Source of the DNA: Deferribacteraceae bacterium V6Fe1
GTDB lineage: Bacteria; Chrysiogenota; Deferribacteres; Deferribacterales; Deferrivibrionaceae
Assembly (NCBI GenBank): GCA_022813675.1
Contig: CP063375.1
Coordinates: 1,376,001 to 1,440,000, forward strand
Direction of reading: 5' to 3'
Length of the DNA stretch: 64,000 bases
Part shown: piece by piece, positions 10,884 to 13,698 of the stretch
How positions within the stretch are numbered: position 1 is the stretch's first letter
How the letters are laid out: each line of letters starts with the position of its first letter
Translations under genes and position numbers: made by a program
The notes under the pieces: model-generated
Seen by the model: the letters and a program-made list of their open reading frames with translations, nothing else
Database searches by the model: none
What the model was told of the DNA's origin: nothing

Positions 10884-12365
10884 TTATTTATCTGTAATTG
10901 ATATTGGATTCTTACCGCCAAATTTGCTCCAGTCTATCACAGGGTTTTCACCATGACAGCTTGAACATTTAAGAGCTTTCTCTTTTGGCTGAATACCGTG
11001 ACTGACAGAAAAATATTCAGTAACATCTTTAAATCCGACAAAAGATGATTCTTTTAAAAATGGTTTGTCAGGCTTTCCGCTTACCATAGTCCCTAATTTT
11101 TCACCTATGAAAATGGCTTTTTCAAGATTATCTCCGACTCCGTTACCATTTTTATCTTCACCCGGACCGCCTTTTGTGACCAGTCCAAGCTTTATTGGAA
11201 GTCTGTTCCCATCTTTGTCAACAGGTATTCTTGATGTGTATTTTTTGAAAGGATAAATTTTGCTGCCTTCTATATTTTTTCCGCCTGTAGGGGTGAGCTT
11301 TTCGCCAGTAGTTTTATCCCACCACAAATATTCTACTGGGACGGAATGTTCGTCTTTTACTACTACTTTAAACAACCAGAAACCACTTTTTTCACTCTGA
11401 TGAAGCTGACTGAAATCTTTATGGACAAGTCCGCCGGTCTTTCCAACGTGACAAGTTACACACGCTACTGCACTGCATTTGTTGTAAATTTCATCTTTGT
11501 GAATCTGCCCTGTGTGACATCTTACGCAGGACTCTGTGTCAAGGTAGTGGTCATAAGCCCAGTTGTTAAGCCCTGCACCCCTTATCATACCATGGTCAGT
11601 CCTTGGCCTTTTTGTGTGGCAATCTACGCACATGATGCCTTTTGCAGCATGAACATCTACATCACTTGCATAATCAACACCACGCTTAAATAAAGGACCG
11701 CCACCGGCAGTATAATGGCATCTCATACAAGCGTCATTTGTAGGTCTGCCAACTGACTGTAATGCTTTGTCACTCATATCTTGGGTAAGTCTCAATATTG
11801 GGTTACCGTCTTTTTCGCCTACTTTTATAACATTTCTTTTAGATTTGTCATAACTCTCAGCATGGCAGTAAAGACATTCAATAGCATTTTTTTGTTCAAA
11901 AGTAGCTTTTTCAAAATCTGCAGGTGGAAAACCACCACCGATATGACAATTACTGCAGCCCATCCCTACCATTTTTCCATCTTTGTTGGGAAGCATACCA
12001 AGATAATTGGCAAGTGGATAAGCGCCGGGGCAGTTACCTATTTTATATTTTTTACCTACTTCTTTCCCACCTGTAACAAATTTGCCATTATTATCTTTGA
12101 GATAGTTAACAGGCACAGGCCCGGCCCACTTATAGTGAGATGAATTCATGACTTCTTTAATTGCCCCTTCGTGACATTTTTCGCAGTAGTATGCGCCTGT
12201 GTAGCCTGTTAATTTACTGTGAGGATTAGCTTTACGTGCACTTCTTGATTTGTACTTTGAGTAGGCATCAGATTTGTAATAATCATCACTTAACACGTAA
12301 CCATCTGCAAAACAATAAGCTGTGAATGACAAAACTAACAAAATAAAAAATAAAAGCTTTTTCAT
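10884..12365 (-). CDS. Octahaem c-type cytochrome, tetrathionate reductase (OTR) family
   Basis: A secreted 493-aa cytochrome. A signal peptide spans about residues 1-20 (AYCFA|D). Eight CXXCH haem sites are visible: CEKCH 61, CSNCH 137, CLYCH 164, CMRCH 213, CVDCH 246, CVRCH 280, CVTCH 302, and CSSCH near 468. The VGRPTNDACMRCH context followed by a Gly-rich patch and DVHAAKG resembles what I recall of OTR-type octahaem cytochromes, which reduce tetrathionate, nitrite or hydroxylamine in vitro; the true substrate in this group is unsettled. It lies 66 bases downstream of a triple-rhodanese lipoprotein on the same strand, which favours sulfur chemistry in the periplasm. Family call fairly sure, substrate unsure. 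Confidence 0.82.
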   Translation of the reverse strand: MKKLLFFILLVLSFTAYCFADGYVLSDDYYKSDAYSKYKSRSARKANPHSKLTGYTGAYYCEKCHEGAIKEVMNSSHYKWAGPVPVNYLKDNNGKFVTGGKEVGKKYKIGNCPGAYPLANYLGMLPNKDGKMVGMGCSNCHIGGGFPPADFEKATFEQKNAIECLYCHAESYDKSKRNVIKVGEKDGNPILRLTQDMSDKALQSVGRPTNDACMRCHYTAGGGPLFKRGVDYASDVDVHAAKGIMCVDCHTKRPRTDHGMIRGAGLNNWAYDHYLDTESCVRCHTGQIHKDEIYNKCSAVACVTCHVGKTGGLVHKDFSQLHQSEKSGFWLFKVVVKDEHSVPVEYLWWDKTTGEKLTPTGGKNIEGSKIYPFKKYTSRIPVDKDGNRLPIKLGLVTKGGPGEDKNGNGVGDNLEKAIFIGEKLGTMVSGKPDKPFLKESSFVGFKDVTEYFSVSHGIQPKEKALKCSSCHGENPVIDWSKFGGKNPISITDK

Positions 12366-12401
12366 TATGTTACCTCCCTATCTTTAATGAAATGCAAAAA
12401 A

Positions 12402-12420
12402 GGCAGCCAGATAGGCTGCC
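12402..12420 (-). terminator. Rho-independent terminator between rhodanese and cytochrome genes
   Basis: A perfect 7-bp stem (GGCAGCC / GGCTGCC) with a 5-base loop is followed on the minus strand by a run of T. It lies between the rhodanese stop and the cytochrome start, so it either ends the rhodanese transcript or lets a fraction through to lower cytochrome expression. Confidence 0.78.
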
Positions 12421-12431
12421 CTTTAACAATC

Positions 12432-13640
12432 TTATTTAATTTCACATTTCCCGCTGGAATAATCAACATGGGCATCTAAAAAATAAAGTCTGCTCATATC
12501 AGGATATTTACAGTCTTCCTTCAGACCGAAATACATTTCACCTGCACGTCCACCGGTTGCGCACATAAAGATTACATATTTGTCCTTTGGTAATTTTGTA
12601 GTAACATTATTGCAATCTTTATACATATCATCAACAGGGATGTTGATTGCACCGTTTACATGGCCGGCTTGAAACTCTGAAGGAGATCTAACGTCTACTA
12701 TAACGATATTGTCGGGTCTGCTGTCGATTAGAGATTTAAAATATTCTTTGTCAACAGTGCCTTCATCTGCACCTACTTTGATTGCAGATGAAGTTGGAGC
12801 TGTAGCTTTAGCTGCTGCTGTATCAGCTTTTTCACCCGGCTTTAAAATTTGTTCGCCTTTTTCTTTCCATTCAGGCTCTCCACCGGCATAAACCAATACT
12901 TTTTTGTAACCCATTTCATATAATTTTTCAGCAACTTTGTGAGATTTTACGCATGCGTATCCACCGCAGAATACAACTATCTGAGTGTTTTTATCTGTTG
13001 GGAGCATGCTCATAAAGGGTGCTGGGTCTTTTAAAAATTTAGTGTCAGGAATGTTGATCGCACCGGGAATGGTTCCTTTTGCATAAACTCTGTCTGGTCT
13101 TGCATCTACAAACATTACACCTTTGCTTAAAAGTGACTTTGCGTATTCAAAACTGATTTCCATAAAATTTTTCTGTGACCAGTCAGGGTCACCTGCAAGA
13201 TACACTTTGATATTTTTAAAGCCTTTGTCTCTTAGGTACTTAGCATCATTGTAACTTTTGATGCAATTAAATCCTCCACAGTAAACGATTAATTCGGTAT
13301 CTTTGGTTACTTTAAGCTCATCAAGCTGAGGGTAAAACTTGTCAAACTTTGTGTCAGGTATGTTGATTGCACTTGGAATGTGGCCTGAGGCGTATTTTCT
13401 TTCAGGTCTTGCATCAATGATGACTACTTGATTAAATTTTCTAAGCCCGTTACCTACTTTTGCTTTAACATAGTCATAATCTACTATCTCAAATCCGGCT
13501 GCTTTGACCTGCTCCATAATGGATGGGCCTTTAGCATTTTCCCCTTCTGGCTTTACTTGTGCTTTCTGGGCACAACTTGCAAAAATAAAGAGTGCAAATA
13601 CGGATACTAAAAGAGTGAGCTTTTTGAAACTTTTTGACAT
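12432..13640 (-). CDS. Triple-rhodanese-domain lipoprotein
   Basis: A 402-aa exported protein with a lipoprotein signal peptide; the lipobox is FASC with Cys23 as the lipidation site. Three rhodanese-like domains follow, at about residues 45-155, 157-270 and 295-400, each with a DARP or DVRS entry motif and an AINIP segment. The active-loop cysteines are visible in YCGGFNC, FCGGYAC and FMCATGGRAGE. Domains 1 and 2 are close duplicates with an unusual CGGxxC loop carrying two cysteines; domain 3 is more like a canonical single rhodanese. Rhodaneses move sulfane sulfur, so an envelope-anchored sulfur carrier next to an octahaem cytochrome suggests handling of polysulfide, thiosulfate or tetrathionate. 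The exact reaction is inference. Confidence 0.9.
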   Translation of the reverse strand: MSKSFKKLTLLVSVFALFIFASCAQKAQVKPEGENAKGPSIMEQVKAAGFEIVDYDYVKAKVGNGLRKFNQVVIIDARPERKYASGHIPSAINIPDTKFDKFYPQLDELKVTKDTELIVYCGGFNCIKSYNDAKYLRDKGFKNIKVYLAGDPDWSQKNFMEISFEYAKSLLSKGVMFVDARPDRVYAKGTIPGAINIPDTKFLKDPAPFMSMLPTDKNTQIVVFCGGYACVKSHKVAEKLYEMGYKKVLVYAGGEPEWKEKGEQILKPGEKADTAAAKATAPTSSAIKVGADEGTVDKEYFKSLIDSRPDNIVIVDVRSPSEFQAGHVNGAINIPVDDMYKDCNNVTTKLPKDKYVIFMCATGGRAGEMYFGLKEDCKYPDMSRLYFLDAHVDYSSGKCEIK

Positions 13641-13670: not shown

Positions 13671-13698
13671 ATGATACCACGAAAAAGTACTCTGTCAA
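13671..13698 (-). promoter_or_regulatory. Sigma-70-type promoter of the rhodanese gene
   Basis: Reading the minus strand, a perfect TTGACA (13698-13693) is followed after 16 bases by TATCAT (13676-13671), about 30 bases before the start codon at 13640. An AGGAGG-type ribosome-binding site lies in between. The strength of the match supports the operon starting here. Confidence 0.7.

Follow-up and report, generated by a model that had tools for sequence, protein, structure and literature searches.

To our knowledge, little is understood of how zero-valent sulfur, insoluble or in chains, is passed to the respiratory enzymes of the periplasm. The Sud rhodanese is a soluble protein with a single rhodanese domain and one loop cysteine. 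In Wolinella succinogenes it is periplasmic and carries polysulfide, and it has been proposed to feed Psr (PMC3397948, PMC5437934). The Psr operon of Desulfurivibrio dismutans, described in 2025, includes a lipoprotein with three rhodanese domains, RS06465, and Psr is up-regulated in sulfur disproportionation (PMC12142623); this kind of protein, the triple-rhodanese lipoprotein, is thus already described, at least since 2025. For the selenoprotein TsoB the listed motif is UxxxxU (PMC13188914), and octahaem and rhodanese genes occur together in Dethiobacter (PMC10376724).

The protein described here is encoded within a window of 64,000 nt, the whole stretch of DNA that was analysed, from Deferrivibrio metallireducens V6Fe1, which has its genome in one contig, 2,358,333 bases long. 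The organism reduces S0, nitrate, Fe(III), and Mn(IV), and does not reduce thiosulfate or sulfate (PMC11896075). Like RS06465, to which we liken it by the published description, the window protein has three rhodanese domains and is a predicted lipoprotein; RS06465 lies in the Psr operon of a sulfur disproportionator, whereas the window protein adjoins an octahaem cytochrome. The profile of the window family matched three genomes (G577, G622, and G560) over positions 4 to 399 with E values from 1e-111 to 1e-116, indicating full-length homology. One of them, G577, presumably D. alkaliphilus, has two full-length relatives, of which one lies beside PsrABC, and it has selenocysteine (Sec) in one loop where the window protein has cysteine. 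Compared with Sud, the window protein has three domains, paired-cysteine loops, and a lipid anchor. It shares with TsoB (NF045694) the chalcogen residues at loop positions 1 and 6 (UAGxTUVRS in TsoB, CGGxxCxKS here), and NF045694 is its best NCBIfam match, at 121.7 bits, which is far below the cut-off of 805; in TsoB a lone rhodanese domain is joined to a DsbD-like membrane protein, whereas the window protein has three such domains. From sequence and gene context we propose that the triple rhodanese is probably an envelope-anchored, three-site relay of sulfane sulfur in periplasmic sulfur respiration.

Architecture and conserved cysteines

The open reading frame at 12432..13640 (-) encodes 402 amino acids, and three stretches of it match PF00581 (cut-off 22.2 bits), with a score of 171.2 bits and E 7.7e-51. 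Residues 1-24 (13569..13640, (-)) comprise a signal peptide and the lipobox FAS-Cys23; because this sequence, FASC-AQ, has an invariant cysteine (27/27 relatives) and no Asp at +2, the protein is predicted to be a lipoprotein. Domain 1 (residues 70-156; 13173..13433, (-)) carries the loop Cys121-GGFN-Cys126 in the context Y-C121-GGFN-C126-IKS, and domain 2 (residues 172-264; 12849..13127, (-)) carries Cys225-GGYA-Cys230 in the context F-C225-GGYA-C230-VKS. The loop of domain 3 (residues 307-396; 12453..12722, (-)), Cys360-ATGG-Arg365, is of the canonical type and reads M-C360-ATGGR-A. Each domain therefore has a catalytic loop cysteine (Cys121, Cys225, and Cys360), and the preliminary description, an envelope lipoprotein with three rhodanese domains, two with CGGxxC loops (CGGFNC and CGGYAC) and the third with a canonical one (CATGGR), was borne out. 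When the paired-cysteine loops were aligned to the C-x-x-G-x-R loop of domain 3, the second cysteine of CGGxxC replaced the arginine.

A search of 60 genomes of the phylum found the triple rhodanese in 27, the window genome included, and in other phyla the profile of the window family picked up relatives that match it along all or most of its length; 64 family loci were read in total, 39 of them outside the phylum. Among the 27 relatives of the phylum, window included, the lipid cysteine and the four cysteines of the paired loops are invariant, and Cys360 was kept in all 26 that are long enough to reach it, one truncated copy stopping short. Chance is no issue for the three-domain architecture and these invariant cysteines. 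Three more cysteines, Cys343 and Cys377 in domain 3 and Cys399 just after it, were conserved in 22-23 of the 27, so that the "four or five cysteines" counted earlier hold for the loops, which have five, and leave out these three. At 47% identity (38.7 s.d. over shuffles) domains 1 and 2 are related, but to call them near-duplicates was an overstatement; domain 3 is 38% identical to domain 1 (z 10.4).

An AlphaFold model of the protein, built on an alignment of four sequences, was of low confidence (pLDDT 64, pTM 0.38) and was used for the fold only; with it, Foldseek matched known rhodaneses, consistent with a rhodanese fold. The paired-cysteine loop was absent from all three PDB matches at E 1e-12. 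The NCBI family of rhodanese-related (seleno)proteins, NF041203, gave 92.2 bits, under its cut-off of 115.

Apparent selenocysteine at the second loop position

Outside the phylum, 21 of the 39 loci have TGA, in frame, precisely where the codon of the second loop cysteine would stand; the loop concerned is that of domain 1 or that of domain 2. A position at which Cys and Sec replace each other usually marks a redox-catalytic residue, and the presence of Sec at this position in relatives suggests that the paired-chalcogen loop is a redox site instead of a plain carrier. About 15 nt 3' of the TGA, a SECIS-like 6-bp hairpin covaries, with 22 compensatory cells compared to 0/500 shuffles as high, a count to be read with the stem having been picked by inspection of the same sequences and with relatedness also inflating compensatory counts; slid structures failed. 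Of 15 Sec-type genomes searched, 14 had SelB over its cut-off, and the remaining one is 76% complete. In two genes that scored over the TsoB cut-off, TGA occurred at both loop positions (UAGLTUVRS and UAGFTUVRS). SelB is also present in the window genome, yet loop position 6 is always cysteine across Deferribacterota.

The apparent selenocysteine triple rhodaneses are those of L245-L250, L263, L266-L271, L275-L278, and L210-L213, with the TGA always at loop position 6. Within the phylum, an in-frame TGA in G014, which cuts the triple rhodanese gene there (L067:7929-8699(+)), was considered as selenocysteine and rejected: it falls at the Trp codon of GGVPEW and reflects a damaged copy or a sequencing error. 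The Psr genes of G014 lie elsewhere, as two copies near 240 kb of contig 4.

Linkage to Psr

The commonest gene partner was a PsrA/PhsA-type operon, with PsrA and/or PsrB within ~5 kb in 29 of the 64 loci, in several phyla. The suggestion that the protein is a multi-site sulfur carrier of sulfur respiration is supported by this gene context. Outside the phylum, PsrA and/or PsrB occurred with no OTR nearby in 14 of the 39 loci, and Psr and OTR both occurred in two. Locus L214 has the order cytochrome c, PsrA (41% identical), PsrB, cytochrome b, triple rhodanese. In family f6, and in G048 and G050, the rhodanese gene adjoins genes for a PsrA/PhsA-type molybdoenzyme and a PsrB-type Fe-S subunit, and an NrfD-type anchor is also found in the rhodanese-Psr neighbourhoods of f6. 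The closest solved relative of this PsrA is PsrABC of Thermus thermophilus (PDB 2vpw, 384.5 bits).

At the level of whole genomes, the PsrA clade was present in 24 of the 27 phylum genomes with the triple rhodanese compared to 0 of the 33 without it, a contrast that shared ancestry inflates. G010 (99% complete) and G049 hold the triple rhodanese without the PsrA clade, and G003, presumed to be Calditerrivibrio nitroreducens, a species that cannot reduce S0, holds both the triple rhodanese and Psr. In the window Psr is not adjacent to the rhodanese gene; in this genome it lies at 2.30 Mb and the rhodanese gene at 1.39 Mb, ~0.9 Mb apart. There, far from the rhodanese gene, two PsrABC operons face each other (L092:6779-15337).

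The octahaem neighbour

The neighbouring gene, at 10884..12365 (-), encodes an OTR-like octahaem cytochrome c of 493 amino acids. It resembles Shewanella tetrathionate reductase (PDB 1sp3, 71.9 bits, E 4e-19) in its eight CXXCH motifs and conserved lysine; it is about 28-30% identical to canonical OTRs and scored 128.7 bits with TIGR04315, below the family cut-off of 375. The eight motifs and Lys227 align in all 8 OTRs compared, and Lys227 aligns with position 153 of 1sp3, which we take to be the distal lysine ligand of the active-site haem.

The rhodanese gene had been described as in line with the octahaem gene, and the two do share a strand with a gap of 66 bp; this gap, however, is filled by an intrinsic terminator (12398..12424, (-); 11-bp stem, T tail), and one operon therefore does not follow from the shared strand. 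A terminator-like hairpin lies in the same gap in L047 and L050 (G002 and G009), and in L046 (G001) one lies just before the octahaem gene, after an IS insertion. No convincing promoter of the octahaem gene's own was found within the 32 bases after the terminator; this gene could be transcribed by read-through. For the rhodanese gene there is a probable sigma-70 promoter at 13671..13698 (-), consisting of TTGACA, a 16-nt spacer, and TATCAT with TG before the -10 (11 of 12 consensus matches); it was the top promoter match in the region and lies ~30 nt upstream of the rhodanese start, in a scan that overall did not rise above chance. In G001 a transposase gene (L046:3045-4385(+)) splits the rhodanese gene from the octahaem gene.

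The window-type octahaem was found in 4 phylum genomes only, beside the rhodanese every time; three of these genomes belong to the genus, the fourth is G009, presumed to be D. autotrophicus, and the outer neighbours differ. Any OTR at all was present in 7 of the 27 phylum genomes with a triple rhodanese, and in 5 of these 7 it lay beside the rhodanese. Over all 64 loci an OTR adjoined the triple rhodanese in 8, and the arrangement that the preliminary description had proposed to look for next to OTR-type cytochromes does recur in other lineages (L069, L252, L261, and L273). In G049 a canonical OTR gene adjoins the rhodanese gene on the opposite strand. Locus L252 (G614), in which no PsrA was found, has the order cytochrome c-like, triple rhodanese, OTR (521 bits, over the cut-off), cytochrome b561, so that rhodanese and OTR follow each other as they do in the window. 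In G578 and G435 a full OTR (540 bits for that part in L261) is fused, within a single gene of ~1080 codons (L261:11836-15087(-) and L273:12616-15861(-)), to an NrfD/HybB-type membrane domain and another haem-rich region; the genes for PsrA, PsrB, a cytochrome c, and the triple rhodanese come next, on the same strand. On a tree of the 64 sequences the OTR-only label required at least 4 changes on well-supported branches, and the loci with both Psr and OTR formed one clade.

As a regular partner the OTR did not hold up, since the window-type OTR is present in 4 of the 27 phylum genomes and Psr in 24; the same comparison ruled out OTR co-occurrence as the sole explanation of the family. Among 24 OTR loci picked irrespective of rhodanese, as a background sample, none had a triple rhodanese. 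YeeE/YedE-type proteins are thiosulfate/sulfur transporters, and the presence of their genes near the OTR in 9 of these 24 points to sulfur for canonical OTRs. Loci L128-L133, L135, L136, and L138 are canonical OTR loci, often with YeeE/YedE-type genes, and in L129 and L135 YeeE has a C-terminal rhodanese-like domain missing the loop cysteine.

Proposed role and alternatives

The relay that we propose builds on what was observed directly, namely the architecture, the invariant cysteines, the linkage to Psr and OTR genes, and the Sec codon at the second loop position of relatives. The lipid anchor would keep the protein at the membrane, on what we infer to be its periplasmic side, where the loop cysteines may be loaded by taking sulfane sulfur off polysulfide to form persulfides. 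The second cysteine of the paired loops, in domains 1 and 2, could then attack the persulfide or polysulfide bound to the first, the pair cycling between dithiol and disulfide, with sulfide or a shorter chain being released or passed on; domain 3, with its Cys/Arg loop, would be an ordinary carrier. Bound sulfur would be transferred to a periplasmic terminal reductase, presumably a molybdoenzyme of the PsrAB(C)/PhsA type in most cases; the adjoining octahaem cytochrome may also receive it in the window lineage. The window protein could be partnered by the octahaem, by a Psr whose genes lie elsewhere in the genome, or by both.

The recurrence of the OTR-rhodanese linkage argues for a sulfur role of the octahaem. 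Along the lines of the preliminary description, the two proteins would be one functional unit in the window lineage, with the octahaem reducing tetrathionate, polysulfide, or rhodanese-bound sulfur without molybdenum. We consider this unlikely. Although the adjacency is kept in the three genomes of the genus and in G009 despite different outer neighbours, the linkage extends to other OTRs (G049, G614, and, as NrfD-OTR fusions, G578 and G435), the OTR-only loci require at least 4 changes on the tree apart from the clade with both partners, and the lysine aligned with 1sp3 position 153 is conserved, a terminator-like hairpin precedes the OTR gene in all four Deferribacterales cases, any OTR is confined to 7 of the 27 phylum genomes with the rhodanese, with none in the S0-reducing G016 (presumed D. 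desulfuricans), and the octahaem scores under the family cut-off. A reading that we take seriously without favouring it is that the octahaem reduces nitrite/hydroxylamine (or Fe(III)) and adjoins the rhodanese gene incidentally, the rhodanese serving the Psr encoded elsewhere. The OTR of D. autotrophicus, for which nitrite has been proposed as the substrate, lacks a homologue in D. desulfuricans (PMC6896113). The species with the window-type OTR (D. metallireducens, D. autotrophicus, and G002, presumed to be D. essentukiensis) form ammonium and reduce Fe(III), and it is absent from D. desulfuricans, whose nitrate reduction stops at nitrite; the distribution of the octahaem tracks the reduction of nitrate to ammonium and of Fe(III) rather than that of S0, and by species it fits nitrite or iron as well as sulfur. 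The terminator between the two genes agrees with an incidental adjacency, but that adjacency outlasts the change of outer flanking genes, the linkage recurs in other phyla, and YeeE/YedE-type genes accompany other OTRs.

The paired loops also admit a bolder scheme, which we regard as quite improbable: Cys/Cys or Cys/Sec loops would themselves be redox-active, reduce sulfane sulfur to sulfide, and be re-reduced by a haem protein, so that with an OTR and a cytochrome b561 or NrfD-type subunit they would make up a molybdenum-free polysulfide reductase, the window pair being its lipoprotein version. That the triple rhodanese is instead a housekeeping or stress protein, detoxifying sulfide, cyanide, or reactive sulfur in the envelope apart from respiration, is very improbable; UspA-like neighbours in Calditerrivibrio-like genomes (by sequence resemblance only) and the 29 of 64 loci with neither reductase in the region read would suit it, but the co-occurrence with PsrA (24/27 compared to 0/33) and the position of the rhodanese gene after PsrAB(C) in several phyla point away from it.

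As a sulfane-sulfur relay, the family would be a widespread candidate sulfur carrier with a testable feature, the second loop chalcogen, which is exchanged between Cys and Sec in nature. Independently of the biochemistry done on Shewanella, the gene linkage also argues that sulfur metabolism is at least part of what OTR-type octahaems serve. In the open-licence papers searched we found no description of the paired-chalcogen loop of triple rhodaneses with recurrent Sec, of paired-cysteine rhodanese loops in general, or of the recurrent linkage of OTR and triple rhodanese, the NrfD-OTR fusion included.

Related loci

Several rhodanese-like genes were seen in other arrangements. In L152 a multihaem cytochrome gene lies directly upstream of a TsoB selenoprotein gene. 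The paralogues in L073, L074, and L079 have an N-terminal CXXCH ahead of rhodanese-like domains, a possible cytochrome-rhodanese fusion, and their layout resembles that of the Sec proteins of L210-L213. A further small cluster, which recurs within the taxonomic order (L072, L075, L077, and L080), combines a small secreted protein and an ArsR-type regulator with a rhodanese-like protein whose loop is altered (VGRPC or similar).
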